DNA of 15,793 nucleotides, from assembly GCA_003242675.1 (NCBI GenBank), contig QGVE01000053.1, forward strand, positions 1-15,793, read 5' to 3'. The number at the start of each line of letters is the position of its first letter. Position 1 is the first letter of the stretch. The DNA comes from Bacillota bacterium. Its GTDB lineage: Bacteria > Bacillota_E > Symbiobacteriia > Symbiobacteriales > Symbiobacteriaceae. Shown piece after piece: positions 4,010 through 13,580 of this stretch. The position numbers and the translations under genes were made by a program. The notes beneath the pieces are model-generated. The model saw only the letters and a list, made by a program, of their open reading frames with translations, did no database searches and had not been told where the DNA came from.

Positions 4010-4540
4010 ATGGCGAAGAGCGTGTGGGTCGTGGACAATGCGCACAGCCTGGCCGAGTTTTCCGTGCGGCACATGATGATCGCGACGGTGAAGGGCCGCT
4101 TCACGGAGGTGGAGGGCCGCATCGAGGTGGATCCCGCGGATTTCACGACCGCATCCATTGAGGGCTCTGTGAAGACCGCGTCGATCAACACCGCCGACTC
4201 CGCCCGCGATGACCACCTGCGTTCCGCCGACTTCTTCGATGCCCAGAACTACCCGACCCTGACCTTCAAGAGCACGAAGATCGAGCGCGCCGGCGACGGG
4301 TACAAGATGACCGGCGACCTGACCATCCGCGGCGTCACGAAGCCGGTGACCTTCGACGTCGAGTTCGCGGGCACCGGCAGGGACCCGTGGGGCAACGAGA
4401 GGCTGGGCTTCTCCGCCAGCGGCAAGATCAACCGCAAGGACTTCGGGCTCACGTGGAACGCCGTGCTGGAGACCGGCGGCGTCCTCGTGGGGGAGGAGGT
4501 CAAGATCGAGCTGCACATCGAGGCCACGAAGCAGGCCTGA
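4010..4540 (+). CDS. YceI-family lipid-binding-fold protein
   Basis: YceI-family beta-barrel (lipocalin-like) protein. Characterised relatives bind polyisoprenoids or other amphiphiles. The 176-residue product carries the family pattern from the start: WVVDNAHSLAEFSVRHMM, then VKGRFTEVEGRIEVDP, SINTADSARDDHLRSADFF with YPTLTFKSTKI, GDLTIRGVTKPVTFDVEF, and FGLTWNAVLETGGVLVGEEVKIELHIEA at the C-terminus. There is no signal peptide, so it should act in the cytoplasm, as in several Gram-positive and Thermus proteins, unlike the secreted E. coli YceI. GGGGAGGAGGA (3994-4004) lies just upstream of ATG 4010 and predicts strong translation. It appears monocistronic and divergent from the hydrolase gene. 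Confidence 0.94.
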   Translation: MAKSVWVVDNAHSLAEFSVRHMMIATVKGRFTEVEGRIEVDPADFTTASIEGSVKTASINTADSARDDHLRSADFFDAQNYPTLTFKSTKIERAGDGYKMTGDLTIRGVTKPVTFDVEFAGTGRDPWGNERLGFSASGKINRKDFGLTWNAVLETGGVLVGEEVKIELHIEATKQA

Positions 4541-4635: not shown

Positions 4636-6459
4636 TCAGAAGCCCAGCAGCAGCTGCACGCTGCGCTGCATGAGCCGGTCCAGGGACCGCCCCATCCCCA
4701 TCAGCAGCTCCTCGATCTCCTGGTCGGACATGTCGTTCAGCCGCTTCGCCCCGGTGAGGTCGGGCAGGTCGAGCTGGCCCTCCAGCACCTCGGTCGCCGT
4801 GCTGATCGTCAGCTCGAGGTCGAAGGCGGGGTCCCACGGGCTCATGGGCTCCACCGCGAGGGTCATCGTCACGTCCTGCTCGAAGCGGTTGTTCTGCACC
4901 GCGTTGCTGGCCAGCGTGCTCAGCGTACCGGAAAACTCCGCCTCGGAGCCGTAGTCGCTGAGCTTCAGCGTGAAGTCGTGGGTGGTGCGGTCCTTGCCCT
5001 TCTGCACGTTCCGGTCGGTGACCGCCGTATCGCTCAGGTGCAGGCCTCCTGCCCGCTCGCCGCCCTCATACACCTCGAACGAGAGGGCGACCTCCGTCTC
5101 CGCCCGGTCCTTGCCCGCGGCGGTGGTGGTGCTGCGCCACTCCACGACGAGTTCGTCCTCGTACGAGGGGCTGTAGACGGACCGGAGGCTGACCTTCCCG
5201 CTGCGGGTGCGCTTCGCGTCCGGGGAGCCCCAGTCCGCGGCCTGCACCGCCACCGGGAAGGCGCGGCCCTGGGCGTTTTCCACGGTGAACTCCAGCTTCT
5301 GGTCGACGAGCCGCTTGCCGTCGGTGTACACCGTCCAGGTGAGGCCGGCGGGGAAGTTCAGGCCCGCCAGCGACGCGGCGACCTTGTCCGCGCCCTCCCG
5401 CAGCCGCGAACGGGCGTGGGCCGGATCCTGCCAGTCCGCCAGTTCGGGCCCGCCGTTGGCCGCCGCCGCGGCGGCGATCTCGCTCAGGAGGCCGAGGGCC
5501 TCGTCGTCGTCCCGGAACGAGGCGGCGAGGTGGGTGAGCAGCTCGCGCAGGCGGGCCTCGGACAGCCGCAGGACCAGCCGGTCCAGCTCCACCGGGCCGT
5601 CCGGCGAGCTGTACTGCACTCCCTTCTCCAGGGTCACCTCTTCCTCGGCGATGAAGTCGTAGACGAGGCGGGCGTAGCCGGCGGCCAGCCTGGCCAGCTC
5701 ATCCTCGTTCTCCCTCAGCACGGCCCGCAGCCGGTTCTCCGTCTCGATCCGGTCCGGCCCGGTGTAGTCATAGAAGCCCCGGTCGCGGAAGAACTGCCGC
5801 AGATTCCGGTTCTCCAGCACGATGTACTCCCGCTCCAGCTCCGGCACGTGGAGGGCGAGGTAGTCGGGCGTCTGCCAGAACTCGGCCGAGATCAGGTCCT
5901 CGCCCCGGAGGCGGAACCCTGCCGTGATGCCGGTGGCCTGGCTGCGGGGGTCCAGCTGCACGTCCATCTCCAGCGCGGAATCCTTGAACAGCGCATCGGC
6001 CTCGTCCAGCCCGCGGGTGCCCCCGGTGATGACGATGTGCGTCCGCGAGGGCCGTTCGGCCATCAGGCGCTCCAGGTCGAGCCGCGCCTTCTGCGCGGTG
6101 CGGATCTCGGCGGCCAGGCCGGCCACGTAGCTGCGCTGCACCTCGAAGAACAGCTGCTTGGGCGATCGGGGCAGGAGCAGGTAGGAAGCCGCCGCGCCGC
6201 CGGCCACCAGCAGGACCAGCAGGGCCGAGAGGACGAGGGCCGCCCGTCCGTTCCGCGCGAAGCGGCCCCTGCCGGCCGGACCCGGTGCCCCCTGCGCCAG
6301 CGCGCCGGCCGCCTCCTGGGGCTGAGCCGCCTGCTCGTGCGCCGGCATCTCGCCGGGGGAACCGACGGACGGCGGCTCCGCCTGCGGGAGCCGCGTGCCG
6401 CAGCTGCTGCAGTAGCGCGCCGCGTCCGGAACCGGGGCGCCGCACTGAGGACAGAACAT
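4636..6459 (-). CDS. Zinc-ribbon membrane protein with large outer domain
   Basis: A 607-residue protein of unknown function. Its N-terminus is a short zinc ribbon (Cys3, Cys6, Cys17, Cys20, in MFCPQCG and YCSSCG). A Pro/Ala/Gln-rich linker (about 24-68) and one membrane span (about 73-96) follow. The remaining ~510 residues should face outside. That outer part is mixed helix and strand, highly charged, and has no Cys or catalytic motif that I recognise. The layout resembles Firmicutes zinc-ribbon-TM proteins annotated only as domains of unknown function, possibly envelope sensing or homeostasis. I chose ATG 6459, because GGGAGG precedes it and the ribbon begins there. A longer frame to 6609 would add an Arg-rich, unrelated leader. 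Confidence 0.82.
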   Translation of the reverse strand: MFCPQCGAPVPDAARYCSSCGTRLPQAEPPSVGSPGEMPAHEQAAQPQEAAGALAQGAPGPAGRGRFARNGRAALVLSALLVLLVAGGAAASYLLLPRSPKQLFFEVQRSYVAGLAAEIRTAQKARLDLERLMAERPSRTHIVITGGTRGLDEADALFKDSALEMDVQLDPRSQATGITAGFRLRGEDLISAEFWQTPDYLALHVPELEREYIVLENRNLRQFFRDRGFYDYTGPDRIETENRLRAVLRENEDELARLAAGYARLVYDFIAEEEVTLEKGVQYSSPDGPVELDRLVLRLSEARLRELLTHLAASFRDDDEALGLLSEIAAAAAANGGPELADWQDPAHARSRLREGADKVAASLAGLNFPAGLTWTVYTDGKRLVDQKLEFTVENAQGRAFPVAVQAADWGSPDAKRTRSGKVSLRSVYSPSYEDELVVEWRSTTTAAGKDRAETEVALSFEVYEGGERAGGLHLSDTAVTDRNVQKGKDRTTHDFTLKLSDYGSEAEFSGTLSTLASNAVQNNRFEQDVTMTLAVEPMSPWDPAFDLELTISTATEVLEGQLDLPDLTGAKRLNDMSDQEIEELLMGMGRSLDRLMQRSVQLLLGF

Positions 6460-6555
6460 GACCGAAAACCTCCCTGACTTGGTGGAAGCCTGGCGCCGGG
6501 CGCGCCAGGACTTCCCTACCCATTCGCTCCGGTCGCGCCTCACTCCTCCGCCCGC

Positions 6556-6592
6556 GCAAAGAGAAGGGGCCGGAGGCCCGTCCCTCCGGCCC
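6556..6592 (-). terminator. Terminator after ychF
   Basis: Read on the minus strand, GGGCCGGAGG and CCTCCGGCCC (6583-6592 and 6567-6576) form a 10-bp stem with a 6-base loop, followed by a pyrimidine tract CTTCTCTTTG. It begins 14 bases after the ychF stop codon and separates ychF from the zinc-ribbon gene, which therefore probably has its own promoter within 6460-6555. Confidence 0.8.
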
Positions 6593-6605
6593 GGAAGGCA
6601 CCGTC

Positions 6606-7709
6606 TCAAACGTTAAACCGGAACGTGACCACGTCGCCGTCCTGCATCACGTAGTCCTTGCCCTCCAGCCGCACCTTGCCCGCCTCCCGGGCTGCGGCCA
6701 GGGAGCCGGCGGCGACCAGGTCGTCGTAGGCGACCACCTCGGCCCGGATGAACCCGCGCTCCATGTCGGAGTGGATCTGGCCGGCCGCCTGCGGCGCCTT
6801 GGTGCCCTTGCGGATGGTCCAGGCGCGCGCCTCGGTCTCGCCCGCGGTCAGGAAGGAGATCAGGTTGAGCAGGCGGTAGCCGTGCTTGATGACCCGGTCG
6901 AGGCCGGACTCGGTGAGCCCCAGGTCGGCCAGGAAGGCCGCCCGCTCCGCGTCGTCCATCTCCGCCAGCTCCGATTCGATCTTGGCGGAGATGGGCACCA
7001 CCTCGCTGCCCTCCCGCTCGGCCAGCTCCCTGACCTGGGCCACGTACGGCACGGCGAAGGGGTCCGCCACGTGCTCCTCGGCCACGTTGGCGACGTACAT
7101 CACCGGCTTGGCGGTGATGAGGTGCAGCCCCCGCAGCACCCGGGCCTCCTCTTCCCCTTCGATGGGCACGGTGCGGGCCGGCCGGCCGGCCTCCAGCGCC
7201 TCCTTCAGGCGGGTGAGCAGCCCGTACTCCACCTGGGCCTCCTTCACACCCGCCTTGGCCGCCTTGGCGGCGCGCTCGTACCGCCGCTCCACGGTCTCCA
7301 GGTCGGCGAGGATCAGCTCCAGGTTGATGACTTCAATATCCGACAGCGGGTCGACCCGGCCGCTCACGTGCGTGACGTTGGGATCCTCGAAGCAGCGCAC
7401 GACGTGGGCGATGGCGTCGACCTCGCGGATGTGGTGCAGGAACTTGTTGCCCAGCCCCTCGCCCTTCGACGCGCCCTTCACCAGGCCGGCGATGTCGATG
7501 AACTTGATGGTGGTGGGCACGATGCGGGCGGAGTTGAACATCCTGGCGAGGACGGGCAGGCGCTCGTCCGGCACCTCGACGACGCCGACGTTGGGCTCGA
7601 TGGTGCAGAACGGGTAGTTCGCGGCCTCCGCGCCGGCGCGGGTGATCGCGTTGAACAGCGTGGATTTCCCGACGTTGGGCAGGCCCACAATGCCGATGGA
7701 GAGTCCCAT
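6606..7709 (-). CDS. ychF: Redox-linked P-loop ATPase YchF
   Basis: Obg-family P-loop protein that prefers ATP over GTP, binds ribosomes and influences oxidative-stress responses. The 367 residues match the normal length. Walker A is GLPNVGKST (9-17), and the switch/G3 region is DIAGLVKGASKGEGLGN (72-88). The usual NKxD is replaced by the YchF-type N-V-A-E (YVANVAEE, 205-212), which explains ATP preference. A coiled insertion spans about 130-175. The C-terminal TGS domain covers about 283-366 (LNLISFLTAGETEARAWTIR... DYVMQDGDVVTFRFNV). I chose ATG 7709, where the conserved MGLSIGIVG begins and GAGGGGGG precedes. It is divergent from the Crp/Fnr gene and behind a near-consensus promoter. Confidence 0.97.
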   Translation of the reverse strand: MGLSIGIVGLPNVGKSTLFNAITRAGAEAANYPFCTIEPNVGVVEVPDERLPVLARMFNSARIVPTTIKFIDIAGLVKGASKGEGLGNKFLHHIREVDAIAHVVRCFEDPNVTHVSGRVDPLSDIEVINLELILADLETVERRYERAAKAAKAGVKEAQVEYGLLTRLKEALEAGRPARTVPIEGEEEARVLRGLHLITAKPVMYVANVAEEHVADPFAVPYVAQVRELAEREGSEVVPISAKIESELAEMDDAERAAFLADLGLTESGLDRVIKHGYRLLNLISFLTAGETEARAWTIRKGTKAPQAAGQIHSDMERGFIRAEVVAYDDLVAAGSLAAAREAGKVRLEGKDYVMQDGDVVTFRFNV

Positions 7710-7740
7710 GGAAAGCCCCCCTCTTGTAGACACCTCAACG

Positions 7741-7769
7741 ATTATACTGGATGAGGATCGCACCCGCAA
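7741..7769 (-). promoter_or_regulatory. Sigma-A promoter of ychF with overlapping palindrome
   Basis: On the minus strand TTGCGG (7769-7764) and a perfect TATAAT (7746-7741) are separated by 17 bases. The start of transcription would be near 7734. The -35 hexamer is one half of a perfect 12-bp palindrome CCGCAATTGCGG (7764-7775), so a dimeric repressor could block it. No matching plus-strand -10 box exists, so the palindrome is not simply a second promoter. Confidence 0.85.
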
Positions 7770-7843
7770 TTGCGGCCGGCAGGGGACCGGCTCCCGGTTG
7801 TCGTACATTTTAAATCTGTCCTTTTCCTGGAGGTGAGCCCGGC

Positions 7844-8515
7844 ATGACCGACCTGGATTTCCTGCGGAGCCTCGCGCTCTTCCAGGGCCTGTCTGAGGAG
7901 GAGCTGGCCCGCGTGGCCGCCATCGCGCGCGAGCGCCACTACCGCAAGGGGACGATCCTGTTCAGCGAGGGCGACCCCGGCGAGGCCATCTACTTCGTCA
8001 AGAAGGGCCGGGTGCGGGTCTTCCGCACCGCGGCCAACGGCCAGGAACAGGTGCTCCGGGTCTGGGGGCCGGGCCACGAGGTCGGCCTGGTGGTCCTGGC
8101 GGACAAGGCCCCGTACCCGGCTAGCGCGCAGGTCACCGAGGACTCGGTGCTCCTCGTCTTCCGGGTGGACGACCTGCTCCAGATCCTGCCCGAGAGCCGG
8201 ACGCTGGCGGCGAACGCGTTCTGCCTGGTCGGCCAGCGGCTCAGGCTCGCCCGGGACCTGGCCCACGACCTGGCCGTGCACAACACCCACGGCCGGCTGG
8301 CCAACCTGCTCCTGCGGATGGCGGAGGAGCAGGGGAGCAACGTCATCACCCTGGGCATGACCCACCAGGAGATCGCGGGGATGATCGGCACGAGCCGCGA
8401 GACCGTCACCCGGGTGCTGGGCGACTTCCGGCGCACCGGCTGCATCGCGGTCCGGGGCGAGCAGGTGGTCATCCAGGACGAGCGCAAGCTGCGGGAGTGG
8501 ATGGGGGAAAACTGA
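7844..8515 (+). CDS. Crp/Fnr-family transcriptional regulator
   Basis: A 223-residue regulator. Residues ~8-115 form the cyclic-nucleotide-binding-like beta roll (LFQGLSEEELARVA..., GTILFSEGDPGEAIYFVKKGRVRVFR). A long dimer helix spans ~117-145, and the winged HTH covers ~150-220. The recognition helix TSRETVTR (183-190) has the same Arg-Glu and Arg spacing as E. coli CRP (SRETVGR), predicting TGTGA-like half-sites. The region equivalent to the CRP cAMP pocket reads GHEVGLVVLADKAPYPASAQV and lacks the Arg-Ser pair that binds cAMP. The only Cys residues are 127 and 200, so there is no Fnr-type iron-sulfur cluster. The signal is unknown; heme or NO is possible. TGGAGGTGAG (7828-7837) precedes ATG 7844. 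Confidence 0.93.
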   Translation: MTDLDFLRSLALFQGLSEEELARVAAIARERHYRKGTILFSEGDPGEAIYFVKKGRVRVFRTAANGQEQVLRVWGPGHEVGLVVLADKAPYPASAQVTEDSVLLVFRVDDLLQILPESRTLAANAFCLVGQRLRLARDLAHDLAVHNTHGRLANLLLRMAEEQGSNVITLGMTHQEIAGMIGTSRETVTRVLGDFRRTGCIAVRGEQVVIQDERKLREWMGEN

Positions 8516-8547
8516 GCGGGCGGCGCCTGTGTGCCGCCCGTTTTCCG
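8516..8547 (+). terminator. Intrinsic terminator of the Crp/Fnr gene
   Basis: CGGGCGGC (8517-8524) and GCCGCCCG (8533-8540) form an 8-bp stem with an 8-base loop, directly after the stop codon and followed by TTTTCC. It isolates the regulator from the cupin operon, which therefore needs its own promoter. Confidence 0.85.
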
Positions 8548-8551
8548 CGGC

Positions 8552-8567
8552 CGTGACGGATCTCACA
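8552..8567 (+). promoter_or_regulatory. CRP-like operator upstream of the cupin operon
   Basis: CGTGA-CGGATC-TCACA matches the CRP consensus TGTGA-N6-TCACA at 9 of 10 arm positions. It lies 85 bases before the cupin start and next to a regulator gene with CRP-type recognition residues. If the weak -10 candidate TAGACT (8613-8618) is used, the site centre falls near -65, in the range of class I activation. No good -35 box is present (GGCCCG), as expected for an activator-dependent promoter. Binding is inferred. Confidence 0.6.
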
Positions 8568-8612
8568 CGGAACCGGCGCGCCGCGGCACGGCCCGGCCGC
8601 CGGATACCCGGG

Positions 8613-8618
8613 TAGACT
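8613..8618 (+). promoter_or_regulatory. Candidate -10 box of the cupin operon
   Basis: TAGACT is preceded by GGG rather than a TG extension, and there is no recognisable -35 hexamer 17 bases upstream. It is the best -10 match between the regulator's terminator and the cupin gene. The absence of a -35 agrees with activation from the CRP-like site. Confidence 0.4.
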
Positions 8619-8648
8619 AGAGGAAACCCGCGAGAAAGGGGATCGGCC

Positions 8649-8957
8649 ATGCAGGTTCAGCTGATCCGGCCCCCGAAGCCGGCGGCGGACGGGGTCTCCG
8701 CCGAGATGATCCACAACTGCCAGGACATGCAGGTGGTGCTGATCCAGCTGAGCCCGGGCGGCGCGCTGCCGGTGTCCACCTCCTCCTCCAGCGTCAGCCT
8801 GCAGGTGGTGAGCGGCCGCTGCGAGCTGGTGGCCGGGGCGGAGTGGGTCGAGGCCAGGGCCGGGACGATGTGGTTCTACCCGCCGGGCGAGCCGTTCGGC
8901 GTGAGGGCCACCGACGAGCCGGCCACCGTGCTGGCCACGTACGCGCCGAGGCCATGA
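8649..8957 (+). CDS. Small cupin-fold protein lacking metal-binding His
   Basis: A 102-residue single-domain cupin. The fold is visible in the pattern LIQLSPGGALPV...SLQVVSGRCELVAG (first motif) and ARAGTMWFYPPGEPFGVRATDEPATVLATY (second motif, with the usual Pro-Pro-Gly before the aromatic). The His and Glu ligands normally found in motif 1 are replaced by a Ser-rich run (STSSSS), and the only His is residue 22. It therefore probably does not bind metal in the classical way and may be a ligand-binding or regulatory partner. AAAGGGG (8635-8641) lies 7 bases upstream. Its stop overlaps the next start as ATGA, showing translational coupling to the membrane protein gene. Confidence 0.8.
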   Translation: MQVQLIRPPKPAADGVSAEMIHNCQDMQVVLIQLSPGGALPVSTSSSSVSLQVVSGRCELVAGAEWVEARAGTMWFYPPGEPFGVRATDEPATVLATYAPRP

Positions 8958-10264
8958 GCGGACCGGAGAAGAAGGGGCCTCAGGTGATCGACCCGGCCAA
9001 GTCGCCGCCGCTCTACGTACCCGTCGGCATGGCCCTGGCGGGGATCCTGGGGCTGCTGGCGCTTCAGGCGCTCGTCCTCTACAAGGCGCCGATGATCTTT
9101 GGCCCCTTCCGCTTCAACCCCGCCGCGCTCGCCGCCGTGCACCTGTTCACGCTGGGCTTCGCCACCTCCGTCATGATCGGGGCCTTCCACCAGATCACGC
9201 CGGTGATGCTGCTGGGCCGCCCCGTGGAGGGCCGGTGGGCGCTGCTGCAGTGCGCCGCGTACCTGGCCGGCAGCTGGGCCCTGGTGTGGGGGTTCTACCA
9301 CTCCGCCGGGCCGTGGATCACGGCAGGGGGCACCCTGGTGGTGCTTTCCCTGCTCGCCTTCGCCGCGCTGGTGGTGCGGGCGATGCGTTCCGCCACCCAG
9401 TGGACGGTCGCCGGCCGCTTCATGGCGGTGGCCCTCTCGTTCGTGCTGGGCACGGTGGTCTGGGGCCTGGTCCTCGCCTTCAACCTGCGCTTCGGCTTCC
9501 TGCCCAACCCCCTCGACTACTCGCCGCTGGGGGCGCACGTGCTCCTGGGCCTGGGCGGCTGGTTCATGCTCACCATCTTCGGCGTCTCCTACCAGCTCTT
9601 CCCCATGTTCGCGCTGACCAACCGGCCGGGCGCCGCCTCGGGCACCACCGTGCTTGTCCTGCTGGCTGCGGGGCTTTGGGGCGCGTTCGCGTCCCTGCTC
9701 CTGCACCTGCCGGCCGCGGTCACCGCCGCCGGACTGGTGACGGTCGCGGCCGGCGCGGCCCGCTACGCCCTCGACTTCGCCGCCATGATGCGGCAGCGGC
9801 GCAGAGCCGAACTGGACCTCTCCATGCGCTTCGCCGTGACCGCGCTGGCCTTCCTGGTGCCGGCCGCGCTCCTGCTCGTGCTCAGCGCCTGGCACCGGCC
9901 CGCGGCCGTGCCCGGGGCCTGGCTCTTCCTGTTCGGCTTCGTCGCCACGATGATCCTGGGCATGCTGTACCGGATCGTCCCGTTCCTCTTCTGGCACTAC
10001 CTGATGAAGCACCGGCGCACCAAGACCCAGCGGCTGCCCACGCTGGACCAGATGTTCTCCCAGCGGGCGGCGCGGGCGGGCTACCACTGCTGGACGGCGG
10101 GCGTGGCTCTCACCGGGCTGCTCCTGCTGGGCGGCGCCCTGGGCTGGTGGGACGCCCGCTACCTGGTGCGGGGGAGCATCATCCTCAATCTGATCGGCAG
10201 CCTGCTGTTCGCCGGCACCCTCCTTCAGGTGTTCACGGCCAGGCCGATCGACGGAAAGGAGTGA
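8954..10264 (+). CDS. 12-TM protein resembling NnrS / heme-copper oxidase subunit I
   Basis: A 436-residue polytopic membrane protein with about twelve spans (near 22-43, 57-79, 96-116, 122-142, 155-177, 193-216, 230-250, 255-278, 293-311, 321-346, 379-397, 405-427). Candidate heme- or metal-binding His residues sit in or next to spans: His63 in AVHLFTLGFA, His79 in GAFHQITPVMLLGRP, His195 in GAHVLLGLGGWF, and His348/His353 after GMLYRIVPFLFWHYLM. Twelve spans and the H-x3-LGF type motif recall heme-copper oxidase subunit I and NnrS, the heme/copper membrane protein linked to nitric oxide resistance. The complete His set of a terminal oxidase is not evident, so respiration is unlikely to be its sole role. 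It overlaps the cupin gene by 4 bases and lies 8 bases before the MIP18-family gene. Exact family not certain. Confidence 0.85.
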   Translation: MSGPEKKGPQVIDPAKSPPLYVPVGMALAGILGLLALQALVLYKAPMIFGPFRFNPAALAAVHLFTLGFATSVMIGAFHQITPVMLLGRPVEGRWALLQCAAYLAGSWALVWGFYHSAGPWITAGGTLVVLSLLAFAALVVRAMRSATQWTVAGRFMAVALSFVLGTVVWGLVLAFNLRFGFLPNPLDYSPLGAHVLLGLGGWFMLTIFGVSYQLFPMFALTNRPGAASGTTVLVLLAAGLWGAFASLLLHLPAAVTAAGLVTVAAGAARYALDFAAMMRQRRRAELDLSMRFAVTALAFLVPAALLLVLSAWHRPAAVPGAWLFLFGFVATMILGMLYRIVPFLFWHYLMKHRRTKTQRLPTLDQMFSQRAARAGYHCWTAGVALTGLLLLGGALGWWDARYLVRGSIILNLIGSLLFAGTLLQVFTARPIDGKE

Positions 10265-10272
10265 CCCACGCG

Positions 10273-10614
10273 ATGAACGACGCGAACGACACCCGCCAGG
10301 AGTCCGCCCGGCCGACGGACCGGGAGGCTCTGGCGCGCACCCTGCTGCGCAGCGTGTACGACCCGGAGATCGGGCTCAACATCGTCGACCTGGGGCTCAT
10401 CTACGAACTGCACGTGGACGAGCAGGACCGGTGCCGCGTGCTCATGACCTTCACCACCGCGGGCTGCCCGGTGGGCGGCCACCTGGTGAACGAGGTCTAC
10501 GAAATCCTGGGCGCCCTCGGCTTCGCCGACGTCCGGGTGGACGTCACGTTCGACCCGCCGTGGTCGCCGGAGCGCATGTCGCCCGAGGCCCGGCGGCAGC
10601 TGGGCTGGCCGTAG
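10273..10614 (+). CDS. MIP18-family (DUF59) Fe-S assembly-type protein
   Basis: A 113-residue member of the MIP18/DUF59 family, relatives of which (SufT, PaaD, Mrp N-domain) help assemble or insert Fe-S clusters. Signature features are LLRSVYDPEIGLNIVDLGLIYEL (residues 24-46, including Asp30-Pro-Glu), TFTTAGCPVGGHL with the conserved Cys65, and VDVTFDPPWSPERMSPEARRQLGW at the C-terminus. Length is typical of stand-alone members. AAAGGAG (10255-10261) lies 11 bases before ATG 10273. An in-frame GTG at 10261 overlaps that ribosome site and is less likely. As last gene of the cupin / 12-TM unit, it may mature a metal centre there, but this is inference. Confidence 0.93.
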   Translation: MNDANDTRQESARPTDREALARTLLRSVYDPEIGLNIVDLGLIYELHVDEQDRCRVLMTFTTAGCPVGGHLVNEVYEILGALGFADVRVDVTFDPPWSPERMSPEARRQLGWP

Positions 10615-11696: not shown

Positions 11697-13580
11697 GTGG
11701 ACGCGCGCACGCGCTGGCGCATCTTCCTGGTGGTCGGCGTGGCGGCGCCGGCGGTGATGGGCGCGGGCGGCCTGCTCCTCGCCCGGCTGGCGACGGGGCA
11801 GTTTCCCGACCTCCTGCGGCTGCCCTCCGGGCAGGCCGTCCTGGCCGGTCTGGCGGCGGGCGGGGCCTCCCTGGCCCTGGTCGGGCTGCTCTCCAAGCTG
11901 AGCGACCGGCTGGAGGAAGCGCTGCGGCGCACGGGCATGCGGGCGGGCGAGGAGGTCCTGCGGACCGTTGGCTACCCGCTGATGGTGGTGATGGTGACCA
12001 CGTCGGCCATCGGCGAGGAGCTCCTGTTCCGCGGCGGCCTGCAGTCCCTGCTGGGCCTCGTGCCCGCCGCCCTCCTGTTCGGGTTCAGCCACGGCGGCTG
12101 GATGCGGGAGCACCGGGCATACGCCGCGGTCGCGGCCCTCTCCGGGGCCATCTTCGGCGGCGTGTACGCCCTGACCGGCGACCTGTGGGCCCCGGCGATC
12201 GGCCACAGCGTCCACAACGTCCTCTCCACCCTCCTGCTGGGCCGCCACGTGGAGGTCGAGTGGCGCGGCCCGGTGCCGGTGGTCCGGCTGGTCCCGGACG
12301 AGCCCGAGGAGACGCAAAGGGAGGAGGTGCCGCGCATGTCCTTCCCCAGCCCGTATCCGCCCCGGCCCACGGCCCGGGACCTGGGCCTCGTGACCGGCCA
12401 CCTGCCGCCGGGGCCGCAGAACGACATCTGCGACGTTCCGGGGGTGCGGGTCGGCCACGCGACCCGGGTGGAAGGCGAGGGGCCGCTGGTGCCCGGCAAG
12501 GGGCCGATCCGCACCGGTGTGACGGCGATCCTGCCCCACGGCGGCAACCTGTTCCAGCAGAAGGTGCCCGCGGGGGTCTTCGTGCTCAACGGCTTCGGCA
12601 AGGCGACCGGCCTCGCCCAGGTGGCCGAGCTGGGCACCCTCGAGACGCCGATCCTGCTCACCAACACCCTCTCCGCCTTCCGCGCGGCGGATGCGCTGGT
12701 GAGCTACATGATCGAGCGGAACCCGGAGATCGGCGTGACCACGGGCACGGTGAACCCCGTGGTCGGCGAGTGCAACGACGGCTACCTGAACGACATCCAG
12801 GGGCGGCACGTGTCGGAGGAGATGGTGCGGGCGGCCCTGGAGGGCGCGTCCACGGGCCCGGTCGCGCAAGGGGCGGTGGGCGCGGGGACCGGCATGGTCT
12901 GCTTCGGCTTCAAGGGCGGCATCGGGTCATCGTCCCGCCGGGTGGACCGGTACATGCTGGGCGCGCTGGTGGTCGCGAACTTCGGGCGCCGGGAGGACCT
13001 GCTGATCCACGGGGTGCCCGTGGGGCGGCGGCTCAAGCACTACCCGGACGAGCCGGAGGCGGCGGACGCCTCGCCGGCGGCCGGGCCGGCGCCCGGGCCC
13101 GAGCCTGCGCCCGGTGAGGAGCCTGCGCCTGCGGCGGAGCCTGCGCCTGCGCCCGATGCGGCGCCGGACCCGGATGCTGCGGCGCCCGGCGAGCCCGAGC
13201 AGGGGTCGGTGGTGGTCGTGCTCGCAACCGACGCGCCGCTGGACGCCCGGCAGCTCACGCGCCTGGCCCGGCGCGGCGCCCTGGGCCTGGCCCGGGTGGG
13301 GGGCAGCGCCGCCAACGGCAGCGGCGACTTCGTCCTCGCGTTCTCGACCGCCAACCGCGTGGCGCACGGGGCCGGCGACCCGCTCAGGGCGGTGACCCTG
13401 CTCCGGGACGACAGCCCGATCATGGATGACCTGTTCCGCGCGGCCGTGGAGGCGGTCGAGGAGGCCGTGCTCAACGCCCTGTTCACGGCCCGGACGGTGA
13501 CGGGCCGCGACGGCCACGTGGCCCACGCGCTGCCCGTAGAGCAGGTCCTGGCGTGGGTAAAGCAAAAACATCCCTTATGA
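11697..13580 (+). CDS. CPBP membrane protease fused to P1 (DmpA-type) peptidase
   Basis: One 627-codon frame with two enzyme modules. Residues 1-~185 are a CPBP/Rce1-type intramembrane protease with several spans and complete motifs: Glu107-Glu108-x3-Arg112 (GEELLFRG), Phe128-x3-His132 (FGFSH), and His170-x3-Asn174 (GHSVHN). A charged linker (~186-213) leads to a P1/DmpA-type aminopeptidase (~225-624), a self-cleaving N-terminal nucleophile hydrolase. Its signatures are DVPGVRVGHAT, NDGYLNDI, VVANFGRR (Asn428), GSVVVVLATDAPL (Gly503/Ser504, predicted cleavage and nucleophile) and NGSGDFVLAFSTAN (Ser542, Asp544). GTG 11697 has GGGGGTGG six bases upstream. A strong internal ribosome site at the junction suggests that the peptidase may also be made alone. 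I know of no such fusion; a lost stop codon or sequencing error is the alternative. Confidence 0.85.
   Translation: MDARTRWRIFLVVGVAAPAVMGAGGLLLARLATGQFPDLLRLPSGQAVLAGLAAGGASLALVGLLSKLSDRLEEALRRTGMRAGEEVLRTVGYPLMVVMVTTSAIGEELLFRGGLQSLLGLVPAALLFGFSHGGWMREHRAYAAVAALSGAIFGGVYALTGDLWAPAIGHSVHNVLSTLLLGRHVEVEWRGPVPVVRLVPDEPEETQREEVPRMSFPSPYPPRPTARDLGLVTGHLPPGPQNDICDVPGVRVGHATRVEGEGPLVPGKGPIRTGVTAILPHGGNLFQQKVPAGVFVLNGFGKATGLAQVAELGTLETPILLTNTLSAFRAADALVSYMIERNPEIGVTTGTVNPVVGECNDGYLNDIQGRHVSEEMVRAALEGASTGPVAQGAVGAGTGMVCFGFKGGIGSSSRRVDRYMLGALVVANFGRREDLLIHGVPVGRRLKHYPDEPEAADASPAAGPAPGPEPAPGEEPAPAAEPAPAPDAAPDPDAAAPGEPEQGSVVVVLATDAPLDARQLTRLARRGALGLARVGGSAANGSGDFVLAFSTANRVAHGAGDPLRAVTLLRDDSPIMDDLFRAAVEAVEEAVLNALFTARTVTGRDGHVAHALPVEQVLAWVKQKHPL
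12319..12338 (+). promoter_or_regulatory. Strong internal ribosome binding site and ATG
   Basis: GGGAGGAGGT (12319-12328) sits about 8 bases before an in-frame ATG (12336-12338), exactly at the boundary between the CPBP module and the P1 peptidase. The quality equals the best ribosome sites in the window, so it looks like a true gene start retained inside a longer frame. Confidence 0.75.
12336..13580 (+). CDS. Alternative product: stand-alone P1/DmpA-type aminopeptidase
   Basis: Translation from the internal ATG would give a 414-residue soluble peptidase, close to the size of family members once the ~45-residue insert is discounted. DmpA-type enzymes hydrolyse small peptides and amides, some of them D- or beta-amino acyl peptides, after splitting into two chains. 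The first conserved block (DICDVPGVRVGHAT) begins about 30 residues in, as in free-standing enzymes. Cleavage before Ser291 (Ser504 of the long form) would give chains of about 290 and 124 residues. With no signal peptide, it would be cytoplasmic when made alone but membrane-tethered in the long form. Which form dominates cannot be told from sequence. Confidence 0.6.
   Translation: MSFPSPYPPRPTARDLGLVTGHLPPGPQNDICDVPGVRVGHATRVEGEGPLVPGKGPIRTGVTAILPHGGNLFQQKVPAGVFVLNGFGKATGLAQVAELGTLETPILLTNTLSAFRAADALVSYMIERNPEIGVTTGTVNPVVGECNDGYLNDIQGRHVSEEMVRAALEGASTGPVAQGAVGAGTGMVCFGFKGGIGSSSRRVDRYMLGALVVANFGRREDLLIHGVPVGRRLKHYPDEPEAADASPAAGPAPGPEPAPGEEPAPAAEPAPAPDAAPDPDAAAPGEPEQGSVVVVLATDAPLDARQLTRLARRGALGLARVGGSAANGSGDFVLAFSTANRVAHGAGDPLRAVTLLRDDSPIMDDLFRAAVEAVEEAVLNALFTARTVTGRDGHVAHALPVEQVLAWVKQKHPL
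13101..13154 (+). repeat. 18-bp tandem repeat coding EPAPxx
   Basis: Three 18-bp units begin at 13101, 13119 and 13137, each with GAGCCTGCGCC. They encode EPAPGE, EPAPAA and EPAPAP. They form the core of a Pro/Ala/Glu/Asp-rich insert of about 45 residues (13060-13205), which ends just before the predicted autocleavage serine of the P1 peptidase. Confidence 0.9.

Follow-up and report, generated by a model that had tools for sequence, protein, structure and literature searches.

Why should a bacterial reading frame that encodes an intramembrane protease and a peptidase carry a ribosome-binding site and start codon of its own where the two enzymes meet? The question is raised by a 627-codon open reading frame in a 15,793-nt stretch of Symbiobacteriaceae DNA (contig QGVE01000053.1 of assembly GCA_003242675.1; the whole stretch is called the window below), in which a CPBP-type intramembrane protease runs without a stop codon into a peptidase of family S58 (DmpA/BapA). 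A preliminary description of this DNA had proposed that the locus makes both a membrane-tethered bifunctional protease and a soluble peptidase. We found that the internal start is conserved and that relatives carry the same two genes as an out-of-frame overlap. The locus is probably a nested gene pair, in which the S58 gene starts within the 3' end of the CPBP gene from its own Shine-Dalgarno (SD) sequence and start codon, with two products expected when the frames coincide.

One reading frame with two predicted enzymes

The fusion (Table 1) scored above the Pfam cut-offs for both parts: PF02517 (Rce1-like) matched residues 94-175 with 42.6 bits against a cut-off of 22.4, and PF03576 (Peptidase_S58) matched residues 242-608 with 414 bits against 23.9. 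The three CPBP motifs, EExxxR, FxxxH and HxxxN, were found without variation in the 22 fusions of our alignment A1, from which P0004, P0012 and P0013 were left out, as they were from the tests run on it. The AlphaFold model of the fusion (mean predicted local distance difference test score, pLDDT, 76; predicted template modelling score, pTM, 0.60) shows two folded modules; confidence is low in the linker between them (residues 202-214) and again over residues 450-500. In this model the CPBP module contains seven helices, two of them of just 14 and 16 residues, and a beta hairpin (residues 183-200) after the last helix; we take six of the seven to be membrane-spanning, helix 70-91 being polar. 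A hydropathy scan by itself gave five hydrophobic segments in P0001, as in a multi-pass protein. When we set the helix limits by the model, Lys and Arg residues number 15 in the N-terminal-side loops and 2 in those across the membrane, and the number of spans is even; both termini of the module would lie in the cytoplasm, as would the S58 part. The CPBP profile gave no match to solved structures at E-values up to 1. By its PF02517 match, motifs and multi-pass character, the N-terminal module is a CPBP intramembrane protease, with proteolysis predicted.

PDB 2drh could be aligned with the whole length of the S58 module, BapA and DmpA with two stretches of it, and residue 13 of the internal-start product aligned with residue 3 of 2drh, where the alignment starts. 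Upon superposition on chain A of 2drh, the S58 part of the model gave a TM-score (target) of 0.92 with 48% identity, the fold expected of this family. The predicted self-cleavage bond, G503|S504, lies opposite G249|S250 of DmpA and N249|S250 of BapA, and both of its residues are invariant in A1. Ser542 and Asp544 align with Ser288 and Glu290 of BapA, which we take to be catalytic. Pfam score, self-cleavage serine, catalytic residues and fold together identify an S58 peptidase, with autoprocessing and activity predicted. Enzymes of this family are oligomers, and their substrates are the N-terminal residues of small peptides or amides. Directly before the self-cleavage site stands an Ala/Pro/Glu-rich insert of 51 residues in the clade of the window; it is long in the Symbiobacterium clade, present in P0016 and P0018, and short or absent in the remaining aligned fusions. 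The preliminary description had read one open frame with both modules intact, as the scores, motifs and cleavage-site alignment bear out, and its product sizes of about 65 and 43 kDa agree with the calculated masses of 65.1 kDa for the full-length fusion and 42.5 kDa for the product from the internal ATG.

Both Pfam domains occurred together in 24 of the 120 homologues listed for the 627-aa protein, at 49-99% identity, which answers the proposal to look for this architecture in relatives; the organism-named fusions among these homologues were from Symbiobacterium or Symbiobacteriaceae. Among 154 genomes of the class, a full-length one-frame match was found in three (G001, G004 and G005), all within the 8 genomes of the order, and in G003, of the same order, the fusion is cut by a contig end. 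The CPBP profile at 1e-10 matched 20 of the 154, namely all 8 of the order (in G007 as a contig-end fragment) and 12 others with open frames of 149-377 codons. In G068 and G047 the CPBP and S58 matches are on different contigs, and S58 matches in long open frames were also seen elsewhere in the class (for example G137, G138 and G139). A search with the N-terminal CPBP part for other fusion partners returned 15 matches, consisting of 14 of the fusions counted above and one algal CPBP. The gene order YchF, Crp-type regulator, FeS-assembly-type protein, PpiC, CPBP-S58 and TPR is common to the window, G005, G001 and G004. G002 has CPBP, S58 and TPR as in the window, with no PpiC match in the 12 kb covered. 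We take the CPBP-S58 loci of these five to be orthologous.

As a separate observation, an in-frame TAA breaks the N-terminal block of the S58 gene in G008 (L049, about 8150-8700), which may start after this codon; the CPBP match of this genome sits on a different contig.

A conserved internal ribosome-binding site and start

The linker at residues 202-214 holds the internal ribosome-binding site and start, with AGGAGGTG at 8-nt spacing from the in-frame ATG at 12336. The junctions read AGG GAG GAG GTG CCG CGC ATG in the window, GAG GAG GAG GTG CCG CCC ATG in G005, GGT GAG GAG GTA GCG CCC ATG in G001, AGG GAG GAG GTG TCC GGA TTG in G004, where the start is TTG, and GAG GAG GAT ACT GCT ATG in G003, where it is placed 13 codons further upstream. 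All six adjacent CPBP/S58 loci with DNA (these five and G002) have an SD sequence and start at the junction, and in all five fusions with DNA an SD core of 6-8 bases stands at 8-nt spacing before the start codon. Further in-frame NTG codons with a core of at least 6 bases numbered 1 of 51 in the window, 1 of 49 in G005, 2 of 50 in G001, 1 of 39 in G004 and 2 of 26 in G003.

Among the 52 in-frame internal NTG codons of the fusion frame in the window, only the junction ATG has an exact SD match of 8 bases. Duplex energies, computed against a generic anti-SD (16S) tail, were -15.1 kcal/mol for this start (rank 2 of the 52) and -15.4 kcal/mol for the SD-like stretch upstream of the GTG at 11697. 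By the same measure the junction start was the strongest in-frame internal NTG in G005 (of 50), G001 (of 51), G004 (of 40) and G003 (of 27). In the proteins, whose linkers otherwise vary, 15 of the 22 fusions show E[VAEGD]xxM, compared with 1.3 on average and 6 at most in 5000 rounds of shuffling. The near-perfect SD sequence and ATG of the preliminary description is upheld by match length, spacing and energy, and the predicted internal SD sequence and in-frame start are conserved.

The two genes overlap out of frame in relatives

The overlap in G002 measures 95 nt, with CPBP and S58 in different frames: the S58 ATG lies inside the CPBP gene, with GGAGG 9 nt before it, and the CPBP stop is 92 nt downstream of this start. 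Because it is out of frame with CPBP, the S58 gene of G002 needs a start of its own. The CPBP protein of G002 as query gave a set of 35 proteins, which includes the query's own record (P0123); many aligned over their full length, including the tail, which is an other-frame reading of the S58 start.

Using proteins only, we asked whether one DNA sequence can encode both a CPBP tail and an S58 start. Ten CPBP/S58 pairs were put together by equal source-contig size (P0139/P0033 differ by 2 bases). For nine of them a single DNA sequence can account for both proteins in the +2 frame all the way between the listed start of S58 and the stop of CPBP, a span of 14-29 codons with the stop counted, as against at most 6 codons in 200 shuffled controls; P0137/P0031 failed. 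A +2-frame reading of the S58 start block, defined by the residues seen in 48 S58 proteins, was fitted by 21 of the 35 CPBP tails over their last 23-24 residues plus stop, while none fitted in +1 and 2 of 1750 shuffled tails did. Fourteen tails had no fit: those of P0132, P0133, P0134 and P0149 are visibly similar and fail the strict residue sets, those of P0137 and P0145 are Arg-rich, P0140, P0141, P0143, P0144 and P0152 end otherwise, and P0155-P0157 are remote CPBPs. An SD pattern analogous to that of the fusions occurred in 16 of the 21 overlap members (shuffle mean 2.8, maximum 9), as judged from protein, with DNA behind P0123, and with some loose fits such as P0136 and P0147.

In eight of the nine fitting pairs the listed S58 protein begins late (MGL..., MMG..., MLG... 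or MRS...), and we infer that gene callers avoid long overlaps. The true S58 start lies upstream of the listed one by DNA in G002, and presumably does so in the other pairs. Relatives, then, carry the pair as an out-of-frame overlap, a result that is new here; the evidence is DNA in G002 and joint encodability of protein pairs elsewhere. The preliminary description had named a stop codon or frameshift between the modules in close relatives as a finding that would refute it; frameshifts exist at the level of the family and were not found among the members of the window clade in our set (P0001-P0011, P0014).

Frame changes and a second fusion partner

To follow the frame states we used a CPBP tree with 54 rows, of which 24 are fused, 21 overlapped and 9 of other kinds. 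Its root was placed on G008 and G006 (G006 being a long branch), and P0012, P0013, P0140, P0141, P0143, P0149 and P0155-P0157 were left out of it. The best tree required at least 6 changes of frame state and the bootstrap trees 5-6, of which 3 were forced by well-supported branches. The S58 tree, with 80 of 83 rows (without P0004, P0012 and P0013), agreed in kind, giving 7 changes, 2 of them forced, under a 'separate' label that mixes overlapped pairs with unknown neighbours. Given that fused and overlapped states have replaced each other, what selection keeps is probably the translation of S58 from within the CPBP gene. The element that stays constant would be an S58 gene that is nested in the CPBP 3' end and has its own start; the fusion would be one of its frame states, and probably not the essential part.

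A different partner was found in G006 (L051:6485-8413), where the reading frame of the CPBP gene continues not into S58 but into a Lar_N-like protein; the Lar_N match is sub-threshold (19.9 bits against a cut-off of 23.3). The junction, GGT GAG GTG CTC GGC ATG, contains the SD-like GGTGAGGTG and an ATG, and an SD-like stretch with ATG is present at the junction in both CPBP fusions. Relatives of the second protein in G001, G002 and G004 occupy open frames of similar length, 416-428 codons compared with 418; the CPBP gene has thus been joined stop-free to two different downstream genes. YchF and PpiC are encoded near the CPBP locus of G006.

A probable nested gene pair with two predicted products

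In Symbiobacterium and several relatives the frames coincide with no intervening stop, and the S58 enzyme of Symbiobacterium most likely exists in two forms, one of 65 kDa tethered to the membrane and one of 43 kDa that is free. Ribosomes starting at 11697 would produce the membrane-anchored CPBP-S58 protein of 65 kDa, and its self-cleavage would yield a 52-kDa membrane alpha chain and a 13-kDa beta chain. Ribosomes starting de novo at 12336 would produce the free S58 protein of 43 kDa, giving chains of 30 and 13 kDa after self-cleavage. As S58 enzymes are oligomeric, long and short subunits may assemble together, and the tether would place an otherwise ordinary small-peptide aminopeptidase at the membrane. 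The tethered form would come in addition, and any benefit from it would be confined to particular lineages. The use of both starts, the self-cleavage and the cytoplasmic position of S58 are predictions from sequence. Two products from one locus, as proposed in the preliminary description, is still the best reading, since the internal start is conserved; the emphasis on the fusion did not stand, as relatives overlap out of frame.

Coupling by termination and reinitiation was considered and rejected. The fusions have no stop before the S58 start, and 92 nt separate start and stop in G002; classical reinitiation is therefore unlikely, and the SD sequence would have to recruit ribosomes de novo.

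Several observations weigh against the nested pair with a working internal start. The strongest in-frame SD duplex of the window belongs to the GTG at 13467, late in the S58 module, with -15.6 kcal/mol. The pattern tests were designed post hoc on related, not independent, sequences, and the shuffle figure for E[VAEGD]xxM is descriptive. The Met of this pattern is missing from 7 of the 22 fusions: Leu takes its position in P0008, P0009 and P0011 (TTG where the DNA is known, in G004), the Met comes one codon later in P0010, and the linkers of P0022, P0034 and P0066 have no Met. The SD sequence of the window is also paired with bases just after the ATG in a predicted hairpin (12318-12350). Finally, all rows of the window clade (P0001-P0011, P0014) are fused although their linker lengths differ, a pattern compatible with some selection in this clade for keeping the two modules in frame.

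RNA structure at the junction was dropped as a feature, as the hairpin has a z of -0.91 and was confined to the window, being absent from the structure predictions for the G005 and G004 junctions.

A more far-reaching version of the nested arrangement is frame-indifferent nesting, in which the start is held while the frame drifts between fusion and +2 overlap, co-assembly of the fused long form with the short form sets the membrane share, and low-level +1 frameshifting possibly occurs elsewhere. We regard it as tentative, with a small though appreciable chance of being correct.

Alternative explanations

The selected product could be the tethered bifunctional protease itself, in line with the coupling proposed in the preliminary description: CPBP would cut membrane proteins, S58 would trim the peptides released, and the internal start would do no more than tune the subunit ratio. 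Both active sites are intact with residues invariant in the 22 fusions, and the frame is kept in the sampled members of the window clade across differing linker lengths. This reading is nevertheless unlikely, given that relatives keep both proteins out of frame with at least 3 frame-state changes, that one relative has CPBP joined to the Lar-like protein instead, and that the substrates of S58 enzymes are small peptides or amides, attacked at their N-terminal residues; we know of no substrate link between S58 enzymes and CPBP.

The internal SD sequence and Met could instead be remnants of a once separate gene, with the fusion as sole product. An in-frame fusion would retain such sequence for some time, and among 16 separate S58 homologues retrieved, five (P0026, P0031, P0032, P0040 and P0044) have N-termini no more than one residue away from the internal Met; of the remaining 11, three start earlier (P0023-P0025), five later (P0027, P0029, P0033, P0035 and P0069) and three are too remote. 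We consider remnants quite improbable, because SD sequence and start are kept at 8-nt spacing in an otherwise variable linker, the TTG that replaces ATG in one fusion is still a start codon, and G002 depends on the internal start.

A +1 ribosomal frameshift within the overlap could yield the fusion in out-of-frame relatives too, which would make the two products universal; we hold this to be very improbable. In its favour, the overlap is long and ends at a fixed place: in 20 of the 21 tails that fit, the CPBP gene stops within the S58 codons for Asn-Asp. Against it, no slip site stood out by eye in G002, the single overlap with DNA, where no systematic search was made.

The lost stop codon that the preliminary description gave as the plain alternative, or a sequencing or assembly error, can be dismissed, as P0002 is a separate public record of the same architecture at 99% identity and the fused homologues are diverged.

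Feature coordinates and neighbouring genes

Table 1. Features of the CPBP-S58 locus; coordinates are positions in the window, residues are those of the fusion.
Feature	Position	Strand	Details or basis
CPBP-S58 fusion open reading frame	11697..13580	+	627 aa, GTG start, open for 627 codons
CPBP (Rce1-like) membrane module, residues 1-201	11697..12299	+	Pfam, model, hydropathy
EExxxR motif, E107-E108...R112	12015..12032	+	invariant in alignment A1
FxxxH motif, F128...H132	12078..12092	+	invariant in alignment A1
HxxxN motif, H170...N174	12204..12218	+	invariant in alignment A1
Disordered, length-variable linker, residues 202-214	12300..12338	+	pLDDT <50; variable in A1
Internal SD sequence AGGAGGTG	12322..12329	+	read as EEV in the fusion frame
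Nested S58 peptidase frame from internal ATG	12336..13580	+	414 aa, about 42.5 kDa
Ala/Pro/Glu-rich disordered insert, residues 450-500, end of alpha chain	13044..13196	+	A1, model, alignment
Predicted autoproteolytic bond G503-S504, Ser504 as N-terminal (Ntn) nucleophile	13203..13208	+	DmpA/BapA alignment

Elsewhere in the window, Pfam matches identified an M29-type metallopeptidase (1483-2409), YceI (4010-4540), a zinc-ribbon protein (4636-6609, minus strand), the YchF GTPase (6606-7808, minus strand), the Crp-type regulator (7844-8515) and the FeS-assembly-type protein (9235-10614). PpiC adjoins CPBP in the window, G005 and G001; the distance from PpiC to CPBP is about 1.4-1.6 kb in G004 (L047 5593-6979), G006 (L051 5044-6485) and G008 (L050 7529-9158).

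Meaning and comparison with known systems

A conserved two-domain protein need not mean that the fusion is what selection keeps, as relatives hold the same enzymes as an out-of-frame overlap. The family offers a natural experiment on gene fusions that arise and dissolve by frame change, and the need for the tethered form is testable by comparing fused and overlapped relatives. If long and short subunits do assemble together, the start-site ratio would set the membrane share of one oligomeric peptidase. Annotation can also hide nested starts, as the late-listed S58 proteins indicate. Neither the CPBP-S58 pair nor a Symbiobacterium S58 enzyme was named in the titles or abstract openings among the literature matches listed.

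DmpA (1b65), BapA (3n2w) and PH0078 (2drh) are similar to the S58 part in fold, in length from near the internal Met and in the Gly/Asn-Ser cleavage site, whereas the fusion also bears a membrane protease at its N-terminus and, within this clade, the 51-residue Ala/Pro/Glu-rich insert. The CPBP/ABI intramembrane proteases (Rce1-like, PF02517) share the three motifs and the Pfam score above cut-off; that of the window is short, carries a beta hairpin at its C-terminus and is fused to S58, or overlaps it in relatives. NCBIfam NF041647 (ABC permease/CPBP) is another type of CPBP fusion, matched here weakly and in part (27.7 bits against a cut-off of 435).

One frame with two starts is also described, in the parts of the sources cited here, for M13 gene 1 and G11p, an internal in-frame start whose long and short forms co-purify in one complex (PMC9228878), and for Salmonella pairs of N-terminal proteoforms from internal in-frame starts (PMC11005335). 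Compared with these accounts, the starts of our locus separate two enzymes, each of which has a gene of its own elsewhere, and relatives differ in how the two frames relate. The GeneTack survey, in the portion cited, reports frame-separated gene pairs with fused homologues (PMC3711429), the same kind of neighbours; here a single family underwent at least 3 state changes, and the downstream gene kept its ribosome-binding site wherever this was checkable. Translational coupling by short overlaps likewise concerns unidirectional overlapping genes, and in the cited part of that work lengths of 1 or 4 nt greatly predominate among the overlaps (PMC10666635), in contrast to 95 nt in G002 or no stop at all in the fusions. 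Gene nesting by an internal start and the fusion of neighbours are kinds already known; what deserves attention here is the repeated switching of frame around a retained ribosome-binding site.

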